A stretch of 26,841 nucleotides of DNA, from IMG/VR virus record IMGVR_UViG_3300032562_000153, positions 1-26,841 of that record; one strand, given 5' to 3'. Below the pieces are notes generated by a model. It was not told the origin of the DNA and searched no databases. It saw only the letters and a list, made by a program, of their open reading frames with translations. The DNA is from a virus. Position numbers and translations under genes: made by a program. Positions 11,837-26,509 of this stretch are shown one piece after another (the stretch's first letter is position 1; each line of letters starts with the position of its first letter).

Positions 11837-13207
11837 TTATATTGCTGGTACTATTGGGATTATCTTCTTAGCTGTTTGCTCGGGGCGGCCATTAACCCAC
11901 CAGAATATATCTCGTCTATCTGCCCGTTGCGGACCATCGATGTAAATGGGAACATAGCCTGTGATTAGTTCAAATATGTTGGCAAAGATAGCAACGTTAT
12001 CGCTATAAGCATTATCACAAGTAGCTTCCCATAAGTCGCCTGTTAAAAACATACAAGCACCTTGACATAGGTGTATCATAGGGCAGTTAGGACATTCTGC
12101 TCTATCGCTCCAATGTGTAGCTGTGTCAACTCTAACTTTGGATAAGTCACTAACATGCCCAATGTGATGTGGTATACCAGCTGGGTTTCTAGCCACTGCG
12201 CTGACGTTTTGGCAAGTAAGTACATTACCATGTAGGTCCACAGCAATGTTATTAGCCTTATCCATACCGCACTTTTGTGGCACAGTTTCTAGCCGACGCT
12301 GTGACTCAACTGATGTTAGAAACTTTCTAACCTTTTGACTTATGCCCAAGAAACGTTTTGCTTTTAAGTCACGTATTTCGTTGTAAGTTTTGTGCCTATA
12401 CTTGATTTGGTCATCAGCATCTAACAAGGAATTTTGTAGGCCGCCTACATCATAAGCATCAACAAACATGCCTTCACCTATTACTAGGTATTGTAGGTAG
12501 TCTTCACCAAGGTTAGTTCGAATAAACTCTTCAAAGTAATCAGTAATAGCTTCACGGCTAGTGTTCTTGCTGTTCATCATAACGTTGAAGCTTACTTTGT
12601 GCTTAGGTGCTAGTATTTTGTACAGGGCTATTACTGCCATTCTACTACCGTCATCAGCTAAAGGATCAGGGCCGCGAACATGTTGCCCGGGACCATCATG
12701 ACTTATACCTACGCCAAAGCTATGACGATCCAACCACATGATCTTTTCTAAGTCCAGCAAGCTACCATTGGTAATTACACTGTGTTCTGCCTTGGGATAT
12801 TGTTTGATAATTGCTTCTGCTAAAGGCTTAAATGTTTTCCAATAGACAAATGGCTCACCGCCCCAATACTCAAATTTAACACCCTCGCCGGTTCCGGGCA
12901 ACCAGTTAGGCATATTAGCCACAAAGGCCGCTACATCATCTGGTGTAGTTTCATCTGAATGTGGCACAAAGCGTTGGTTACAATAATCGCACTCAAAGTT
13001 ACAGCTAAGACCCATTTGAATTTTAACTGTGCTAAGATTGCTTTTACCTTGCTCTATTACAGATTGTACGAGATTGGCGTCAACGTTATTAGGTGCTACA
13101 ATAACATCGCCATCTTTCCAACGAAAAGAATTATTTGATGTATCATAGACGACATCTTTATATTCTTGTGTTGCTGATTTATAGCCTGTAATTTCAAATA
13201 ATGCCAC
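11837..13207 (-). CDS. Radical SAM / SPASM maturase (anSME-like)
   Basis: Residues C69, C73 and C76 form the CX3CX2C motif for the radical SAM [4Fe-4S] cluster. WGGEP (115-119), TNGSL (146-150) and a SHDGP segment (169-173) follow in the usual barrel order. The C-terminus fits the SPASM rule CX9-15GX4C...CX2CX5CX3C...C exactly: C313, G327, C332, C372, C375, C381, C385, C397. Such proteins, including anaerobic sulfatase-maturating enzymes and RiPP maturases, use two extra Fe-S clusters to modify peptides or proteins. The start is GTG with AGGA seven bases upstream, two bases after the preceding stop. It is the last gene of the oxygenase/NCNCNC block. The substrate is unknown; a nearby virion protein is a reasonable guess. 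Confidence 0.88.
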   Translation of the reverse strand: MALFEITGYKSATQEYKDVVYDTSNNSFRWKDGDVIVAPNNVDANLVQSVIEQGKSNLSTVKIQMGLSCNFECDYCNQRFVPHSDETTPDDVAAFVANMPNWLPGTGEGVKFEYWGGEPFVYWKTFKPLAEAIIKQYPKAEHSVITNGSLLDLEKIMWLDRHSFGVGISHDGPGQHVRGPDPLADDGSRMAVIALYKILAPKHKVSFNVMMNSKNTSREAITDYFEEFIRTNLGEDYLQYLVIGEGMFVDAYDVGGLQNSLLDADDQIKYRHKTYNEIRDLKAKRFLGISQKVRKFLTSVESQRRLETVPQKCGMDKANNIAVDLHGNVLTCQNVSAVARNPAGIPHHIGHVSDLSKVRVDTATHWSDRAECPNCPMIHLCQGACMFLTGDLWEATCDNAYSDNVAIFANIFELITGYVPIYIDGPQRADRRDIFWWVNGRPEQTAKKIIPIVPAI

Positions 13208-13209
13208 TG

Positions 13210-13779
13210 TTATGTCCTAGGTATGTAACGATAATTCCAACTGTCACTGGGTGTTAGATGTAGACCAACACTAAGTCTTAAATTATTCTTAGCACGAATA
13301 TTAGGTGTCACTGGCATGTGTGCTAAGTGACTTGGAAATAATACTGCTCTATTAGGTATATATTCTATTTCAGTTAGGCCGAGACTAGTATCTGGTTTCT
13401 TAGTAGTGTCAGAAGTTTGCCAGCATGATTCATCGTTGAATATTTGTAGTTGCCCTGCCCAGGATTTATCCCATGACTCTGAAGCAAACCATATAAGTGA
13501 ATAGTTACCCGGTGGCCCGTCGACGTGACAGTGTGATTCGTTAGATGTAGTAGCACCATTAATACCAACTCGTTGTACAGCAAATGGTCTTATGTCTAAC
13601 TGGGCTAGCTGACCGTATAAGATGCCGCCAACTGTAGATTCTACTGTAGGATCAAATATGCGCCACACACAGGTTTTATTTGTAGCACCGCTTAAAGGTG
13701 GAAACGTCCAATAGCTACCCTTAAAGTATTCAAGACACAGATTCCATTCTTTGTCACTTAAGAAGTTGTCTATGATCAT
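13210..13779 (-). CDS. 2-oxoglutarate/Fe(II) oxygenase, prolyl-hydroxylase-like
   Basis: The 189-residue protein has the iron triad of the double-stranded beta-helix oxygenases: H85-V-D87 within SHCHVDGPP, distal H154 in FPSHLAHMPVTP, and R168 in a LRLSVG strand, suited to bind 2-oxoglutarate. The strands YSLIWFAS and WAGQLQIF between them fit the fold. The closest general type is the prolyl 4-hydroxylase-like group, which hydroxylates a protein or peptide side chain using oxygen and 2-oxoglutarate. The N-terminal MIIDNFLSDKEW is also typical. Its ATG overlaps the stop of the upstream oxygenase as ATGA, implying coupled translation. The real target is not visible in the sequence. Confidence 0.78.
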   Translation of the reverse strand: MIIDNFLSDKEWNLCLEYFKGSYWTFPPLSGATNKTCVWRIFDPTVESTVGGILYGQLAQLDIRPFAVQRVGINGATTSNESHCHVDGPPGNYSLIWFASESWDKSWAGQLQIFNDESCWQTSDTTKKPDTSLGLTEIEYIPNRAVLFPSHLAHMPVTPNIRAKNNLRLSVGLHLTPSDSWNYRYIPRT

Positions 13780-14399
13780 AACTTAATAAAGCTATTGGCC
13801 TGTTGACGGTCTTTAATTCTGGCATTCATTACTACTAGAATACGATCCTTGGTGCCCTTGTACATCTCAGACTCGTGGAACATATAAGCAGGATGAATGA
13901 TAAACAGATTAGGCACTGGTTTTAATTGAAATAACATATTATGATTAAGTCCACGTGAACGCTGTGCTATAGGATCAATTAGTAGCAGTCTACCATCGTC
14001 ACGGTCACATGTGTCCTCATTGCTGTCAACTACATCTAGGTCTACGTAGAATACACCTACATAGTCTATGCCGCGATGTGTGTGCGGGCGTGCCCTATCT
14101 CCGTAGACAAAGCGTCTGGGAAATACATTAATTTCAATCTCAAGTTCTTCTGGGTCAATAAAACCTTCAACTCGTAGAAAGTAATACATTCTTTCTTTAA
14201 CAAGTTGTCTGAAGTATTGTATGCTGTCATCGGGGTCTAGAAACAGGTTAGGGATAGTTATTTCCTGATTGAATATTTCTGGCACACCATTATACTTGTC
14301 GATGTGCGGAAGTATTGCCTGATGAAACTGCTTAAGTATGTCATCAGTTAGGAAATTATGCTCCGTCCAGATATTAGTTGGCCATAATTGATGTAACAT
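13776..14399 (-). CDS. 2-oxoglutarate/Fe(II) oxygenase-like protein, paralogue 1
   Basis: The 207-residue product has H106-T-H108 in a RPHTHRGIDYVGVFYVDLD stretch, distal H175 in HPAYMFHESE and R186 in KDRILVV. This is the pattern of phage oxygenases of the 2OG-FeII_Oxy_5 kind, though the second ligand is His rather than the usual Asp. It is clearly paralogous to the next gene upstream: GRLLL-DPI-QRSR-LNH and HPAY---H-SE are shared. A longer frame reaches 14453, but the ATG at 14399 is two bases from the previous stop and gives MLHQLWPTNIW, which aligns with the paralogue. Its stop overlaps the downstream oxygenase start. Confidence 0.7.
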   Translation of the reverse strand: MLHQLWPTNIWTEHNFLTDDILKQFHQAILPHIDKYNGVPEIFNQEITIPNLFLDPDDSIQYFRQLVKERMYYFLRVEGFIDPEELEIEINVFPRRFVYGDRARPHTHRGIDYVGVFYVDLDVVDSNEDTCDRDDGRLLLIDPIAQRSRGLNHNMLFQLKPVPNLFIIHPAYMFHESEMYKGTKDRILVVMNARIKDRQQANSFIKL

Positions 14400-14400
14400 G

Positions 14401-15048
14401 TTAGATCTTTTTGTAGAATGGATGCTGTATAGGCTCAGCAATTCTAATAACAAAAGTAAAGAAGTAACGAGTTCTTTCGCCTAGATAGGGTTCACTTTGG
14501 TGATACAAGTATGCCGGGTGCATGATAAAGAACTTAGGATAAGGAATAACATCTATATTCTGCGTATGATTTAATGCTCGTGAACGTTGTGAAATAGGAT
14601 CAGTTAGCAATAAACGACCTTTAGGTGTTTTAAAATTATCAGTGCCATCATTTACTACATCTAAATCAGCATAGTAAACTGCTACATAATCACAGCCACG
14701 ATGGTTGTGTGTTTTAGAACGTTCGCCCGGTTGATGACTGCGTGCCGCACTTACTACTTCGATGTCGTACTTTTCTGGATTGATAAAACCTTCTGCTTCC
14801 ATCATCATTAAGGTACGTGATTTGATAAATGCCTTCATCTTGTCGATAACAGGATGGTCAACATCTAATAAGTTATAGCCTTTGCGATTAGGATCTAGGA
14901 TATCAGGAACATGTTTAAATTCCTTAGAATGCTCTTCACCAATTCTAATTAGTTCTTGATTTTCTTCATCACTGATATCGACCTTTTCCATTAGGATATT
15001 TACTGGCCAATGTCTTTGAATTGTTATTTGTTGATTATCTACGTTCAT
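14401..15048 (-). CDS. 2-oxoglutarate/Fe(II) oxygenase-like protein, paralogue 2
   Basis: At 215 residues this is the sister of the 13776-14399 product, with H114-N-H116 in KTHNHRGCDYVAVYYADLD, distal H183 in HPAYLYHQSE and R194. The N-terminal RHWPVNILMEKVDI matches the WPTNIWTEHNFL start of its sister. The two genes are adjacent, so a tandem duplication followed by divergence is likely. The ATG overlaps the stop of the upstream Ig-domain gene as ATGA. Enzyme class rests on these motifs; the HxH first pair is a departure from HxD and leaves some doubt about chemistry. Confidence 0.7.
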   Translation of the reverse strand: MNVDNQQITIQRHWPVNILMEKVDISDEENQELIRIGEEHSKEFKHVPDILDPNRKGYNLLDVDHPVIDKMKAFIKSRTLMMMEAEGFINPEKYDIEVVSAARSHQPGERSKTHNHRGCDYVAVYYADLDVVNDGTDNFKTPKGRLLLTDPISQRSRALNHTQNIDVIPYPKFFIMHPAYLYHQSEPYLGERTRYFFTFVIRIAEPIQHPFYKKI

Positions 15049-15803
15049 ACTTGGATCTCCGCCTTACCTGTGTAAAACTTAAAGCCTGCTTTGACTTTGC
15101 CCTTACCTTTGAACATGAGAGTAGTCTGCGCTTGCCCTTGCTCATCTGTTATAAGTCTTGTTTCTTGTAATAGACCTGTTGTGGTTTCTAGGTATATTTC
15201 GATGCCAGGATTATGAGCAAGTGTGCCGTCGGCATTTACTAATTGAGTGTATACTATGTCATCTTTAAAGTCAAGTGCGATGCTGGGCAACATTGGAATA
15301 ATGTCATCTAGACCGTTGCCATTAATAGTTTCGATAAAATTATCGCCTTGTTCAACCCCATTAATTACTATAGTTTTTGCTGGCAGGAATACAATCCAAT
15401 CTTCAAAAGGGCTATCCGGCCATGGACGAGCAAAGCAAAATCCCTGCTGTATGCCCAGCATTGATGCTACTACATGCCCTGTGGTTGATTTAGAGTCTAC
15501 TGTGTGTCTAAAGAAATCATATACACGAACTTTTTCGTGTAGTCTAAACCCTATACCTATAATAGCATGTGGCTGATTAATCTGTTCGTTTGAGCTGGTA
15601 TCTCTATTAAGATCAGCCGGTGATAAAAATCCACTATAGTGATCAAGTTGATTCATATTCATTTCGCGGCGATGCGAAACAACACAATCTTTACTACCTA
15701 TTAAGGTCAGATCGTATTTTATTCCGTCCATACTGTGTTCTATAATTAGCGTGTTGGGGCTTTGATCTTGCCCTACGTGAGGGCATTTTTTGAATCCTAT
15801 CAT
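15045..15803 (-). CDS. Ig-like-domain virion protein, paralogue A
   Basis: The last 75 residues look like a bacterial Ig-like (Big_1/invasin-type) fold: VYTQLVNADGTLAHNPGIEI, YLETTTGLLQETRLITDEQG, then a KVKAGFKFYTGKAEIQV end. The first 175 residues share a second domain with the neighbouring paralogue, seen in FF/FV-strands around residue 90 and PDSPFEDWIVFLPA with TIVINGVEQG. Ig-like domains decorate many phage capsids, tails and fibres, where they may bind surface sugars weakly. It lies 19 bases after the other paralogue and overlaps the oxygenase gene downstream. It could be a virion decoration or a substrate of the enzymes; the sequence does not decide. Confidence 0.6.
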   Translation of the reverse strand: MIGFKKCPHVGQDQSPNTLIIEHSMDGIKYDLTLIGSKDCVVSHRREMNMNQLDHYSGFLSPADLNRDTSSNEQINQPHAIIGIGFRLHEKVRVYDFFRHTVDSKSTTGHVVASMLGIQQGFCFARPWPDSPFEDWIVFLPAKTIVINGVEQGDNFIETINGNGLDDIIPMLPSIALDFKDDIVYTQLVNADGTLAHNPGIEIYLETTTGLLQETRLITDEQGQAQTTLMFKGKGKVKAGFKFYTGKAEIQV

Positions 15804-15822
15804 AATATTATCCAGTGTAATA

Positions 15823-16584
15823 TTATATAGTTATCTGAGTTTTCCCACTGAAGTATTTAAATCCGGCTTTGACTTTACCTTCTTCTGCGCCAATGACCTG
15901 TGTAGTAGCAAGACCTGTGCTGTCTGTTGTACCTCTAGCTTTGGTTAAATAACCTGCAGTTGTTTCAAAGTAAATATCAACACCAGCTTTTGCTATAGGA
16001 TTACTGCTAGCATCTACCAGTTGTGCCGATACGGTAGTATCTGTTTTGGTTAAAGTGATCCCTGGAAGATTTTCATTACATACATCTGCTATGGTTTTAT
16101 CGATGTCGATATCAAATGTTGTAGTAATGGCCGTTCCATTAACTGTTAAATTATTTGCCACAACAACAAAAGTCCAATCATCAACCGGACTATCCGCAAA
16201 TGGTACTAGAACATACATGATAGGACGAATCTGTGTAGCGTTATTAAAAAACCCAGTTGATCCTTTGATTTGATAGGTGTATTTTAGTACGTCGACAAAA
16301 TAAAATCTATTAGTTTCTTCAGACAGTCCGCAGGCAATAAATTGATGCGGGTTATTTAATGACAGTCCTGTTTTCTTTTCTGTTAAAATGTTAACTGGCG
16401 TAATTGTATCAGTGACATCCGGAGATTCTGGATAGTTATATGTTGTTACTAATCGGCCGTCCACCATAGTATTTGATGGAACTCCTTTAAACCAATTTAA
16501 TTGAAAAGACCCATCTGAGTTTGTAGTTATTGAGATGTTGCAATTAACAAAGTCATTTTTAAATGGTCTAATATAAAACTTCAT
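15823..16584 (-). CDS. Ig-like-domain virion protein, paralogue B
   Basis: The 253-residue product is similar in length and plan to the 15045-15803 protein. Shared landmarks are ADSPVDDWTFVVVA with LTVNGTAI, and a C-terminal Ig-like unit with VSAQLVDASSNPIAKAGVDI, YFETTAGYLTKARG and KVKAGFKYFSGKTQITI. The N-terminal 80 residues differ more, including IRPFKNDFVNCNIS. The start has AAGGA seven bases before ATG. A perfect late-promoter octamer lies 60 bases upstream inside the preceding gene and might drive it. The likely role is a virion surface or baseplate accessory protein; no enzyme motif is visible. Confidence 0.6.
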   Translation of the reverse strand: MKFYIRPFKNDFVNCNISITTNSDGSFQLNWFKGVPSNTMVDGRLVTTYNYPESPDVTDTITPVNILTEKKTGLSLNNPHQFIACGLSEETNRFYFVDVLKYTYQIKGSTGFFNNATQIRPIMYVLVPFADSPVDDWTFVVVANNLTVNGTAITTTFDIDIDKTIADVCNENLPGITLTKTDTTVSAQLVDASSNPIAKAGVDIYFETTAGYLTKARGTTDSTGLATTQVIGAEEGKVKAGFKYFSGKTQITI

Positions 16585-16599
16585 ATCTATTTCCTTGAA

Positions 16600-16863
16600 T
16601 TAACAATTACAATTACAGTTACCAACCATGGTGCCTATTAGGTTATTATTTATATCGTAGTAGTATAACGTCAATGCCATACCACTGCCACCCCAGGTAA
16701 AATGATTACCTGTTTCACCTACTTTTGAATAAGTCGGTAATTGGGCTGTTAATGTTGTGTACCCGCTGTCGTTAGTAAAGGCACTGATATTAGCTGGTGT
16801 TTTTGTAGTTTGTACTGTGCCATCACCAAATGTAACTATTCCATTTCCTAATATTACGCTCAT
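16600..16863 (-). CDS. Small fibre-like protein with NCNCNC tail, copy 1
   Basis: This 87-residue protein starts MSVILGNGIVTFGDGTVQTT, the kind of N-terminus seen in phage fibre proteins. A variable middle follows, then LYYYDINNN and the end GNCNCNC (C83, C85, C87). It has no other cysteine. The first 98 bases are identical to copy 3, after which the two diverge abruptly. Tail codons differ from those of the other copies, so the tail is kept at protein level. It could be a substrate for the downstream oxygenases and maturase, or a small trimeric fibre whose inward cysteines bind metal. No clear Shine-Dalgarno sequence precedes it, so coupling to copy 2 (7 bases away) is likely. Confidence 0.75.
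   Translation of the reverse strand: MSVILGNGIVTFGDGTVQTTKTPANISAFTNDSGYTTLTAQLPTYSKVGETGNHFTWGGSGMALTLYYYDINNNLIGTMVGNCNCNC
16647..16654 (-). promoter_or_regulatory. Possible internal late promoter
   Basis: The minus strand reads TATAAATA, the exact T4 late consensus, inside the codons for Asp-Ile-Asn-Asn of NCNCNC copy 1. It is placed about 60 bases before the Ig-domain gene that starts at 16584. It may be chance in an AT-rich coding stretch. Confidence 0.3.
16766..16863 (-). repeat. 98-bp exact direct repeat, unit 1
   Basis: Identical base for base to 17312-17409. Both cover the ATG and first 32 codons of an NCNCNC gene. Identity stops sharply at both ends of the shared segment. Confidence 0.95.
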
Positions 16864-16870
16864 AGTTTAA

Positions 16871-17131
16871 TTAGCAGTTGCAGTTACAATTCGCTGCGCC
16901 GCCCCAAATAGTATTATTATTAATATCAGACAAATATAGTGTAAGACTATATCCCCAAGATCCTGTAAAACTGCCTACTGACTGTGCTTTTGTTGCGTAA
17001 GTTGCTGCTACATTACTTGGCGTTAGATATCCGTTATCGTTAGCAAAGGCACTGACATTGGCTGGGGTCGCTGTGGTTTGTACAGTACCATCCCCAAATG
17101 TCATTATTCCATTTCCTAATATTGCGCTCAT
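16871..17131 (-). CDS. Small fibre-like protein with NCNCNC tail, copy 2
   Basis: The 86-residue product is the most diverged of the three in its N-terminal part (MSAILGNGIMTFGDGTVQTT) but keeps the plan: NDNGYLTP after the fibre-like start, a variable middle, LTLYLSDINNN, and NCNCNC at the end (C82, C84, C86). It has no other cysteine. Its tail is coded TGT-AAC-TGC-AAC-TGC, unlike copy 1 (TGT-AAT-TGT-AAT-TGT). It shares YLSDINNN with copy 1 rather than copy 3, so the halves have different histories. Only a weak AGAG precedes the ATG. Confidence 0.75.
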   Translation of the reverse strand: MSAILGNGIMTFGDGTVQTTATPANVSAFANDNGYLTPSNVAATYATKAQSVGSFTGSWGYSLTLYLSDINNNTIWGGAANCNCNC

Positions 17132-17145
17132 TTTTAATATTCTCT

Positions 17146-17409
17146 TTAGCAGTTACAATTACAATTCCACGGTCCAGCAGTACCTAATTGAGTTCCAGTT
17201 ACGCTATAGTAATATAATACCCCATTACGACTTGCTGTACCAGTTACTGAATGTATAGCATTAGGTATTGTTGCCCATGTTGATGCGGCTGTTGATGATG
17301 TTAAATATGAACTGTCGTTAGTAAAGGCACTGATATTAGCTGGTGTTTTTGTAGTTTGTACTGTGCCATCACCAAATGTAACTATTCCATTTCCTAATAT
17401 TACGCTCAT
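17146..17409 (-). CDS. Small fibre-like protein with NCNCNC tail, copy 3
   Basis: This 87-residue protein has the same first 32 codons as copy 1, a different middle (SYLTSSTAASTWATIPNAIH), then GVLYYYSVTG and the end PWNCNCNC (C83, C85, C87). It has no other cysteine. AGGA lies seven bases before ATG, and the upstream S74 fibre gene stops one base away, so it is probably made on the same transcript. The pattern of fixed start, changing middle and fixed cysteine tail recalls both modular fibre tips and precursor peptides with a constant recognition part. Function is unproven. Confidence 0.75.
   Translation of the reverse strand: MSVILGNGIVTFGDGTVQTTKTPANISAFTNDSSYLTSSTAASTWATIPNAIHSVTGTASRNGVLYYYSVTGTQLGTAGPWNCNCNC
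17312..17409 (-). repeat. 98-bp exact direct repeat, unit 2
   Basis: The second unit of the exact repeat described at 16766-16863. The intervening copy 2 gene is clearly diverged over the same region, so exchange between copies 1 and 3 or insertion of copy 2 are both possible. Confidence 0.95.
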
Positions 17410-17410
17410 T

Positions 17411-18220
17411 CTAGTTTCCTAGTCGACGTTTAAGTTCATTGACTTCTTGACGTAGTTCTTTAATGGCTTCAATTAGTAGCGGAGCAAAACGTTCATATTG
17501 AACAGTTAAATATTCATCGCTGATCGGTGCTGTTTTAACAATTTCAGGTAATACTGCCTGTGTGGCCTGCGCACTTACACCAACTTCACGCTGACGTGTG
17601 TAGCCTAATCCTTGTGCCAGATCATTTGCTTCGTAGTAGAATCCAGTTAGTTGGTCTACTTTATCTAGAGCATTTTCAATTACACCTAGTTTAGTTTTTA
17701 ATCGTTCATCTGAATAGTAACTCGTAATAGCATTAGTCGCACGTATTTCACCTACGTTACCAAATGTTCCAGTACCTACTCCCAATGACGTTAGTTGAGT
17801 ATATGCTGCTGTTATATTACCTGTTGTTATATTACCTGTTGTTATATTACCTAATGTGGTGATATACGGTTGACTTGCTGTTTGTAATGTACCAGTTAAA
17901 TATGCTCCGTTGACATATCCAGCAGCGGTTAGGTTGCCCGAAAGAGTAACTGATGAAGTACTAATAGTACCTTGAATAGTTCCGTATATAGCACCAGCAA
18001 CATATAAGTTGCCGCCGATACCCATACCGCCACCGACAATCATTGCGCCCGAAGTAGATGAAACAGAATTTGTATTTGCTGTAATTGTTAAACTACTTGC
18101 TGTTAAATTAGCACCTGTTGTGCTAGCACGTAGCCAAGCCGTTTTTGTGCTATTGTAAACATAAGTAATTCCGTTTACTAGTGCTTGTTGTCCGTTTGAT
18201 GGGCTTGAAGGAAATGCCAT
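17411..18220 (-). CDS. Tail fibre with S74 self-cleaving chaperone domain
   Basis: Residues 1-165 are fibre-like: MAFPSSPSNGQQALVNGITY, then GGGMGIGGNLYVAGAI and short TTGNI repeats. From S170 the protein matches the peptidase S74 intramolecular chaperone: SDERLKTKLG with S170 and K175 as the catalytic pair, EVGVSAQ, YLTVQYERFAPLLIEAIKEL and a C-terminal coiled coil. In this family the chaperone helps the fibre trimerise and then cuts itself off just before the serine; here that would release about 100 residues. GGAAG precedes the ATG. It ends one base before the first NCNCNC gene. Short tandem 15-base repeats at about 17808-17850 encode the TTGNI units. Confidence 0.88.
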   Translation of the reverse strand: MAFPSSPSNGQQALVNGITYVYNSTKTAWLRASTTGANLTASSLTITANTNSVSSTSGAMIVGGGMGIGGNLYVAGAIYGTIQGTISTSSVTLSGNLTAAGYVNGAYLTGTLQTASQPYITTLGNITTGNITTGNITAAYTQLTSLGVGTGTFGNVGEIRATNAITSYYSDERLKTKLGVIENALDKVDQLTGFYYEANDLAQGLGYTRQREVGVSAQATQAVLPEIVKTAPISDEYLTVQYERFAPLLIEAIKELRQEVNELKRRLGN

Positions 18221-25724: not shown

Positions 25725-26432
25725 TTAGATATGATCTAATGTTACAGTTGCGTTTGCAGCTGGGCTTGTTGATGTTCCTACATTAAGTGTAGCAGCACCC
25801 AAAGTCCAAGCAACTTTTACGTTAGCTGCATATTGTGTACCTGTTACAGGAACTAAAGTCACTGTGCGATCAAACAATTTTCTAACCCAGTATGTACCAC
25901 CTGCTGAATCAAATGCCGCGATGTTCATTTTGCCATCAGTTGTGGTAGATATTAAAGCTGAGTTAGCAAAAGCCGCTAATGAACAAACACTTGTACCTTG
26001 TGATGTTTGAACTAGATAACGATGTCCACTTTTTTGTCTTAGTATATCACCTAATTGTGTTGTTGTGCTACCGTTACCTGCTATGTTAGCATAACATTTA
26101 ATTGATGGGTTTACTTCACTTTTTAGTGTAACTGTACCAAACGCTGGACTAGTATTTGGTCCACCGAATGTTACTGTTGCTGTGCCTGCATAGCCGCTAC
26201 CAGCATTAGTAATTGTTACACCTGTGATCACTTGAGCAGCATTAGCACTGATAATTGCTGTACCAGTTGCTTGTGTACCGCTAGCTTCAGTTGGTGCCGA
26301 GAATACTACTGTTACGTTAGCAGCATAGTAGCCTGAACCACCTGCTGTCATTGCTACTGAAGCAAGGTTAGCACCTGCGTCATCACCGGCATTGTACTTA
26401 CCGATATATTTTGGTTTAATTGGTCTTCCCAT
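25725..26432 (-). CDS. Virion structural protein, 235 aa
   Basis: The start MGRPIKPKYIGKYNAGDDAG resembles marine T4-like structural proteins and echoes the MGRMIKNAG start of the 24258-24680 product. Two repeats follow: GGSGYYAANVTVVFSAPTEA with ATGTAIISANA, and AGSGYAGTATVTFGGP, a short beta unit frequent in phage fibres and decoration proteins. The last 120 residues (RQKSGHRYLVQTSQG, MNIAAFDSAGGTYWVRKLFD) form a separate beta domain. AGGAG lies eight bases before ATG. It has its own late promoter, an unusually GC-rich leader and its own terminator, so it is transcribed alone, which would suit a protein needed in large amounts. Confidence 0.75.
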   Translation of the reverse strand: MGRPIKPKYIGKYNAGDDAGANLASVAMTAGGSGYYAANVTVVFSAPTEASGTQATGTAIISANAAQVITGVTITNAGSGYAGTATVTFGGPNTSPAFGTVTLKSEVNPSIKCYANIAGNGSTTTQLGDILRQKSGHRYLVQTSQGTSVCSLAAFANSALISTTTDGKMNIAAFDSAGGTYWVRKLFDRTVTLVPVTGTQYAANVKVAWTLGAATLNVGTSTSPAANATVTLDHI

Positions 26433-26509
26433 TTGGTTTTCTCCTTAAAATGGTTGGCGTTCTAGGCCTACGCGGTGGGTGCCGCATAAACTCCCCTCAC
26501 GGAGCGAAC
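26433..26509 (-). promoter_or_regulatory. Structured GC-rich mRNA leader
   Basis: The predicted 77-base leader is far richer in G and C than its surroundings. Visible pairings are CTCC/GGAG, GCGG/CCGC around CACCCA, and GTTC at the 5' end with GAAC, which would close a branched fold. The AGGAG ribosome-binding site lies outside the fold. Likely roles are mRNA stability or a 5' protective structure. Confidence 0.5.

Follow-up and report, generated by a model that had tools for sequence, protein, structure and literature searches.

The gene cluster and its C-terminal tails

The window analysed here is a 26,841-base virus fragment (IMG/VR record IMGVR_UViG_3300032562_000153) with tailed-phage genes, among which tail sheath, head-tail adaptor and tail-fibre proteins were recognised by PHROGs matches. 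Our subject is a group of nine genes on its minus strand (17409-11837), arranged head to tail directly after the gene of a fibre with an S74 chaperone domain (Table 1), and in particular the link between the Asn-Cys (NC) tail of its small proteins and its radical S-adenosylmethionine (SAM) enzyme. An initial annotation had listed three small proteins ending in NCNCNC (here called mini-fibres), two immunoglobulin (Ig)-like proteins, three 2-oxoglutarate (2OG)-Fe(II) oxygenase-like proteins and one radical SAM/SPASM protein, all co-directional and separated by small gaps or overlaps. All of these open reading frames (ORFs) were confirmed in place and on the minus strand, with the qualifications that the third oxygenase match is weak and that the Big_1 Ig-like matches in two window ORFs (26.3 and 13.6 bits) are both below the cut-off of 34.9. 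The gaps in reading order are 14, 7, 15, 19, -4, -53, -4 and 2 nt, and the one overlap of 53 nt is start-dependent, becoming a gap of 1 nt if the second oxygenase gene begins at ATG 14399 and not at TTG 14453. Locus L137 repeats the gene order of the window, including the three mini-fibres, two Ig-like and three 2OG-like genes, with an enzyme 59% identical to that of the window. The S74 fibre is perhaps the fibre body that the mini-fibres accompany.

Table 1. Positions in the window of the nine clustered genes and of the adjoining fibre gene.
Feature	Positions	Strand	Basis or remark
Tail-fibre protein, C-terminal Peptidase_S74 chaperone domain	17411..18220	-	PF13884 40.6 bits; PHROG tail-fibre families; 1-nt gap to mini-fibre 1
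Mini-fibre 1, 87 aa, end WNCNCNC, candidate substrate	17146..17409	-	NC-tailed relatives in L051-L056
Mini-fibre 2, 86 aa, end ANCNCNC, candidate substrate	16871..17131	-	
Mini-fibre 3, 87 aa, end GNCNCNC, candidate substrate	16600..16863	-	
Ig-like partner A, 253 aa; invasin/Big_1-like C-terminal domain, N-terminal part variable	15823..16584	-	Weak Big_1
Ig-like partner B, 252 aa, paralogue of A	15045..15803	-	28% identity to A in alignment
2OG-Fe(II) oxygenase-like, 215 aa, accessory	14401..15048	-	PF13759 32.8 bits, cut-off 27
2OG-Fe(II) oxygenase-like, 207 aa from likely ATG (ORF list: 14453)	13776..14399	-	PF13759 30.0 bits, cut-off 27; start judged from L137 relative
2OG-Fe(II) oxygenase-like, 189 aa, accessory, weaker match	13210..13779	-	PF13640 20.7 bits, below cut-off 27
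Radical SAM/SPASM maturase, 456 aa, PHROG 1802 family	11837..13207	-	Profile matches, conserved Cys, model

The three mini-fibres have a common N-terminal motif (29 to 34 of 36 residues identical), a divergent middle and the same last six residues; among them and the L051 relatives the tail codons differ synonymously (AAT/AAC, TGT/TGC) and the tail protein sequence is constant. A tblastn search of one mini-fibre against the phage collection gave no match at E 1. Besides small proteins, long fibre-like proteins carry the NC tail; in 98 of 135 NC proteins the run is exactly C-terminal. At the position before each Cys in the (xC)n runs (n=605), Asn is the commonest residue (468), followed by Ala (58) and, third, Asp (31). 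Single-linkage clustering of the NC-protein bodies gave six clusters, the largest of which holds 113 of the 135 and perhaps reflects fibre repeats chaining together; the clustering gives no support for many separate origins and was not used as evidence of independent origins. As a control for chance, NC tails on ORFs of at least 60 aa were counted by the same rule in 113 control loci (943 kb) and on the opposite strand of the radical SAM loci (1260 kb), and two were found in each; both control-locus tails look like genuine NC proteins.

Coupling of the tail and the enzyme

Among fifty enzyme relatives from viral contigs, chosen without regard to tails, an ORF ending in CxC lies within 5 kb before the enzyme in all 42 loci with at least 2.5 kb upstream; most of these ORFs are 0.8-3.3 kb from the enzyme, with lengths of about 280-440 aa. 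The reverse search, for NCNCNC followed by TAA in viral contigs, gave 109 matches at 106 loci, 88 of which end an ORF of at least 60 aa (63 distinct). Once two families of about 202 and 184 aa (with L100) are excluded, an exclusion set after these were seen without the enzyme, 56 distinct ORFs remain that we call fibre-like, and the enzyme lies downstream of 46 of them (42 in the locus on the same strand and four only in the whole record); without the exclusion the count is 46 of 63. The distance from tail stop to enzyme start ranges from -133 to 3674 nt, with a median of 928. The ten fibre-like ORFs without an enzyme have at most 1,420 bases downstream and are cut by contig ends; a whole-record search gave no match, and for the two of these loci in longer records the record itself stops there. 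Chance repeats were rejected: 21 of the 109 matches are out of frame or end an ORF shorter than 60 aa, and a same-strand enzyme is in the locus of none of the 21.

A tail-blind scan of viral contigs by the N-terminal fibre motif KGSPLTNxEVD, with 25 incomplete ORFs set aside, separated the tail from the rest of the fibre. Among the matches listed, the enzyme follows five of six complete fibres ending in CxC, the sixth having 151 bases downstream, vs none of 86 fibres without a Cys tail, 34 of which have at least 2.5 kb downstream (Fisher P 1e-7, a value that ignores phage relatedness and, as the phages are related, overstates independence). It is the tail, and not the N-terminal part of the fibre, that the enzyme accompanies. 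Three of the 86 listed tail-less fibres (L181, L220 and L235) close in CNCNK, have S74-like C-termini by eye and are without the enzyme; the downstream sequence exceeds 200 bases in L220 alone.

The pairing extends to cellular genomes. Searching bacterial and archaeal genomes with an alignment of the enzyme gave 97 relatives, of which 80 were kept, in Limnohabitans, Polynucleobacter, Burkholderiaceae, Rhodobacteraceae, Magnetospirillum and others. Loci of Alpha- and Betaproteobacteria among them look prophage-like, a status checked by tail-protein matches in three loci only (L298, L309 and L335). At any upstream length, an NC run is upstream of the enzyme in 47 of 60 genome lineages. In the phage collection the enzyme matched 32 records, with coverage of at least 80% in three, all from Achromobacter. 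Cultured carriers are the Achromobacter phages JWF and 2-1 and isolates including Limnohabitans, Polynucleobacter and Rhodobacteraceae strains; JWF is reported to be a temperate phage (passages of PMC3899368). Genome, viral and Achromobacter loci were pooled into 132 loci and 92 lineages at 90% identity, of which the 73 with at least 4.5 kb upstream were used; 12 of the 19 shorter ones set aside also have an NC run. An (xC)n run lies upstream on the same strand in 64 of the 73, C-terminal in 56 and before a Hint-type sequence in eight, placing a putative precursor beside the maturase, as is asked of ribosomally synthesized and post-translationally modified peptides (RiPPs). Three of the nine misses arise because the NC-run rule is too strict, L013 and L016 ending in NCRNCNC and L304 carrying a run 18 aa from its end; L289 shows a fibre-like frame but no NC run, L356 has other Cys-rich tails, and in the remaining four no run was found. 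The tail-enzyme rule thus largely holds in distant bacterial loci. The check proposed in the initial annotation, whether SPASM and oxygenase genes co-occur with NCNCNC proteins more often than chance, is passed for the SPASM gene, with coupling far beyond chance (46/56; 5/6 vs 0/86 among the matches listed; 64/73). Tails occurring widely without the enzyme, which that annotation had named as counter-evidence, were seen only in the families of about 184 and 202 aa, the misses among fibre-like ORFs being contig ends.

In locus L356, from Parasutterella muris, three small proteins with Cys-rich tails of another kind (e.g., GHCSHCTYCAYCTHCS) and an Ig-like protein precede a distant enzyme (253 bits), and this may be an outlying version of the module.

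Internal NC runs and the Hint domain

Ten of the 135 NC runs lie more than 12 aa from the C terminus, and eight of these ten precede a Hint-type FPA(A/G)T sequence. The fibres of Achromobacter phages JWF and 2-1 read ...NCNCDCNC(NC)SCFPAGT..., and the Hint profile PF05203 matches them with 47.5 and 46.6 bits (cut-off 32.1), covering the first 37-40 of 228 profile positions and starting at the last Cys of the NC run (residues 308 and 306, respectively). These were the two above the Pfam cut-off among seven NC proteins tested, the other five falling below. A Hint-type sequence also comes after the run at one locus of Burkholderia paludis and at five Rhodospirillaceae/Rhodospirillales/Magnetospirillum loci, and five of these six were tested and gave sub-threshold Hint matches. 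Cleavage by Hint domains is at their first Cys, so that the NC run would become the C terminus; the predicted self-cleavage would fit a need for an exposed NC end. In L304 and L156 no Hint-type sequence follows the internal run. The L156 run, in a 263-aa ORF that ends 4.2 kb before the enzyme, is 166 aa short of the C terminus, and the sequence after it is not Hint-like.

The radical SAM/SPASM enzyme

The window enzyme matches Radical_SAM PF04055 (32.1 bits, cut-off 29.5), SPASM TIGR04085 (28.9 bits, cut-off 27) and PHROG 1802 (224 bits). Its CX3CX2C motif (C69, C73 and C76) is kept in 133 of 133 distinct relatives, and the SPASM cysteines C313, 332, 372, 375, 381, 385 and 397 are each present in at least 130 of them, completing in the window enzyme the seven-Cys SPASM motif CX9-15GX4C-gap-CX2CX5CX3C-gap-C. 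All ten Cys conserved at this level are thus within cluster motifs, three radical SAM and seven SPASM, and no eighth auxiliary Cys reaches 30% among the 133 sequences. As only seven auxiliary Cys are conserved, auxiliary cluster I (Aux I) appears to be without a fourth ligand (three by count), which suggests an open cluster, as in thioether-forming CteB. The AlphaFold model of the enzyme (predicted local distance difference test, pLDDT, 85.8) has CteB as its closest structure (Z 23.6, root-mean-square deviation 4.4, 360 aligned residues), with ChlB, anaerobic sulfatase-maturating enzyme (anSME) and TigE 2 to 5 Z lower. No NCBIfam equivalog for radical SAM/SPASM RiPP maturases was above its curated cut-off, the best being DynA with 59.7 bits (cut-off 450) among the best 25 of 42 matching families.

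The presence of anSME among the closest relatives (58.8 bits and Z 20.7), with a similar domain layout (19% identity over 319 aligned residues), raises formylglycine-type oxidation, in which Cys would be converted to an aldehyde, as by anaerobic sulfatase maturases, to give a reactive adhesive tip; the JWF enzyme gene is in fact annotated as an anaerobic sulfatase maturase. However, anSME is defined by eight auxiliary Cys and by an Asp after the Aux I Cys, the catalytic base, and acts on the motif CxPxR. The window family has one auxiliary Cys fewer, and the position of that Asp aligns with Gln333, where Asp occurs in 0 of 133 relatives (Q 124, H 6, N 1, P 1, R 1). The family is also without the extra conserved Cys expected of fully ligated auxiliary clusters such as those of anSME, SuiB and PqqE, whereas the open auxiliary site of CteB is filled by a leader Cys of the substrate (passages of PMC6231123). 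We regard oxidation of this type as most improbable.

Epimerisation of alternate residues by a PoyD-like reaction, which would build a D/L beta-helix tip, accords with the strict alternation of Asn and Cys, as this fits the 1,3 pattern of PoyD; known epimerases, however, depend on a further catalytic Cys, and the radical SAM cluster is the only one in proteusin epimerases (passages of PMC8326336). With all ten conserved Cys of the present family fitting cluster motifs, we give epimerisation a very small probability.

Thioether formation is better placed. Asn and Asp, the commonest and third commonest residues before Cys in the runs, serve as thioether acceptors in Cys23-Asn20 of NxxcA and in the six Cys-Asp links of freyrasin (passages of PMC8326336), and QhpD, a SPASM-type radical SAM enzyme encoded beside its substrate, installs three Cys-Asp/Glu thioethers in a functional protein subunit with the help of a second tailoring enzyme (passages of PMC7876137). 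The apparently open Aux I by count, the CteB-like predicted fold, the Asn/Asp acceptors and the QhpD precedent on a protein subunit together make thioether chemistry the leading option, although we hold it only tentatively. The likeness to the QhpD/QhpC system lies in a SPASM-type enzyme encoded beside the substrate, and TIGR03906 weakly matches the window enzyme (43.7 bits, cut-off 453); QhpC differs in being non-viral with an N-terminal 28-residue leader, whereas the candidate site here is a C-terminal repeat on fibres with no evident leader. The ranthipeptide maturases (CteB/SCIFF, PapB, NxxcB) are alike in the CteB structural match, the suggested open Aux I and the Asn/Asp acceptors; they differ in that the window enzyme is without a match to a RiPP recognition element (RRE) profile and its candidate substrate is not a small released peptide. 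The maturase cut-offs among the best 25 families are also missed by a wide margin, PapB for example scoring 51.3 bits vs a cut-off of 340.

A proposed fibre-tip maturation module

Since the tail and the enzyme are coupled on different fibre proteins, in distant phages and in prophage-like loci, the tail is the best candidate substrate, and it is very probably the part on which the radical SAM/SPASM enzyme acts. From gene order, sequence and one predicted fold, on which the whole interpretation rests, we consider it likely that the locus is a fibre-tip maturation module, in which the enzyme radically modifies the NC tip of a receptor-binding fibre. The reaction would take place in the cytoplasm of the host, at the (Asn-Cys)n C terminus of the fibre or mini-fibres, by means of a SAM-derived radical and an auxiliary iron-sulfur cluster whose open site could hold a substrate thiolate. 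As the likeliest outcome, at least one Cys would be joined by a thioether to a nearby Asn/Asp, so that the tip of a presumably trimeric fibre becomes covalently locked. The partner with the Ig-like domain probably binds this tip or presents it, serving either as its chaperone or as an adhesin; in some lineages, 2OG oxygenases and, rarely, a flavin halogenase-like protein would make further changes. Internal NC runs would in most cases be exposed at the C terminus through self-cleavage of a Hint domain. Such modification may in turn affect adsorption.

Several observations weigh against this module. To our knowledge, the adjacent Cys-Asn spacing matches no known thioether ring size. Four radical SAM lineages (L323, L339, L348 and L353) have no NC run found nearby, and the upstream genes of L353 start like flgK and flgL (names by eye), a context that may point to a non-phage use of an enzyme relative. 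No leader peptide or RRE profile match was seen; a reduced RRE-like part is possible, since the CteB alignment starts at residue 1. The Cys on Aux I in CteB is, moreover, a leader Cys and not a cross-link Cys (a passage of PMC6231123). Finally, no enzyme was found with seven distinct NCNCNC-ended ORFs of other families, whose records reach up to 90 kb in length, and the motif alone thus does not call for it.

In these other families the NC tail may serve another use. Their members, not recognised as fibres, comprise proteins of about 202 aa (L074, L096, L111, L124, L136 and L157), proteins of about 184 aa (L071, L106, L117 and L153) and another 184-aa protein in L100. Among the four lineages without a tail nearby, the enzymes of L353 and L323 score about 450 bits.

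That the motif can serve without a radical SAM enzyme also speaks for a metal-binding tip, in which the alternating Cys of a trimer would face the axis and hold a metal or an iron-sulfur cluster, the enzyme helping to load or protect the site or altering a few residues; the final form would then be a metal site and not a cross-link. Some NC fibres have a His-rich stretch just before the tail (e.g., NHHFDPHHHHNNCTNCNCNC), and T4 gp37 coordinates seven irons via HxH motifs near its tip (a passage of PMC11705849). Nevertheless, HxH occurs within 30 residues before the run in only seven of the 135 NC proteins, though His-rich stretches looked common by eye, and a metal tip leaves unexplained why fibre-like NC tails go with an enzyme resembling SPASM peptide maturases wherever the DNA suffices. 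We judge it unlikely as the principal explanation. T4 remains a useful comparison in that a distal receptor-binding fibre protein has a dedicated helper, gp38 being required for the folding of gp37 (a passage of PMC6957217). It differs in its tip chemistry, which is His-bound iron. We know of no modifying enzyme for the gp37/gp38 tip.

On a broader scale, RiPP-like virion chemistry might extend across many tailed phages, a modular (Asn/Asp-Cys)n tag being placed on different fibres, exposed by Hint if internal, and turned into a cross-linked, possibly metal-binding receptor-contact tip, perhaps a metallophore mimic at an outer-membrane receptor; we offer this as a conjecture that is rather doubtful at present. 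As far as we know, phage receptor-binding tips are thought to use ordinary amino acids plus, at most, bound metal. If the maturation module is real, the adhesin ends of some phages are products of dedicated chemistry, which would bear on host recognition and virion stability, and recombinant fibres might be inactive without the enzyme; radical SAM chemists would gain a large natural set of pairs of enzyme and C-terminal tag, and practical use could be made of a short C-terminal tag through which unrelated proteins recruit a modifying enzyme. The initial annotation knew of no described phage system with this set of genes, and likewise no description of NCNCNC, or of radical SAM together with a phage fibre, a receptor-binding protein or a RiPP, was found in the open-access papers searched, a scope without subscription journals and preprints. 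The available passages of the JWF isolation paper and of a paper on its relative Lumi do not contain 'radical SAM', and a passage of PMC10783043 mentions a radical SAM gene with QueC.

The Ig-like partner, the oxygenases and other neighbouring genes

Neighbouring genes were counted in 97 enzyme lineages with at least 4 kb upstream. An Ig-like protein is present in 84 of the 97 vs none of the 113 control loci, and 2OG genes in 45 of the 97 (one in 25, two in 11, three in nine) vs three of the 113, contrasts that are somewhat flattered because the control loci are short on average. The Ig-like protein is the constant partner and the oxygenases are optional accessories; we accordingly rejected the latter as a core part of the system. 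The proposal in the initial annotation that the Cys tails, or other fibre parts, are modified before virion assembly, much like a RiPP precursor, is partly supported: genetic coupling makes the tail the best candidate substrate for a putative modification by the SPASM enzyme, and the oxygenases are accessories. The label 'DNA endonuclease V' that PHROG 274 puts on 2OG genes was taken as a misannotation.

The near constancy of the Ig-like protein raises the alternative that the enzyme acts on a different protein of the locus (the Ig-like partner or the fibre body, for example), with the NC tail as a docking tag that recruits it. In an alignment of 25 Ig-like sequences, however, the only invariant columns are M1, G211 and K239, and six loci (L060, L061, L304, L307, L309 and L341) keep an NC run and the enzyme with no detected Ig-like gene, which makes the tail the better substrate candidate. 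We therefore hold another substrate to be decidedly unlikely and retain the NC tail in that role. The model of partner A has a mean pLDDT of 72, with a confident C-terminal and a poor N-terminal part, and Foldseek related it to phage Chi neck and intimin domains with low template-modelling (TM) scores.

Further genes recur near the module. A Trp_halogenase PF04820 match follows the enzyme and Ig-like gene in two loci (L135:8486-9697, 101.5 bits; L131:9022-9876, 27.4 bits), and this flavin-dependent halogenase-like protein might provide an extra tailoring step. A gene for a DctP-like solute-binding protein of tripartite ATP-independent periplasmic (TRAP) transporters (PF03480, 140 bits, about 315 aa; e.g., L013:9647-10621) lies near the module in 20 of the 97 lineages vs none of the 113 control loci, and beside it recurs a protein of about 340 aa (e.g., L022:10697-11734) that starts M-L-Y-Y-N-T/H and for which Pfam gave a sub-threshold Asn_synthase match only.

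Elsewhere in the window, the Rfam freshwater-2 RNA motif (RF02980, 54.9 bits, cut-off 49.9) was found at 26430-26506 on the minus strand. A literature search for freshwater-2 by name found no paper. The motif is directly upstream of a gene with a weak match to the head-closure-like PHROG 460 (25725-26432), overlapping its start by 3 nt, and is possibly a cis-regulatory RNA before phage structural genes.

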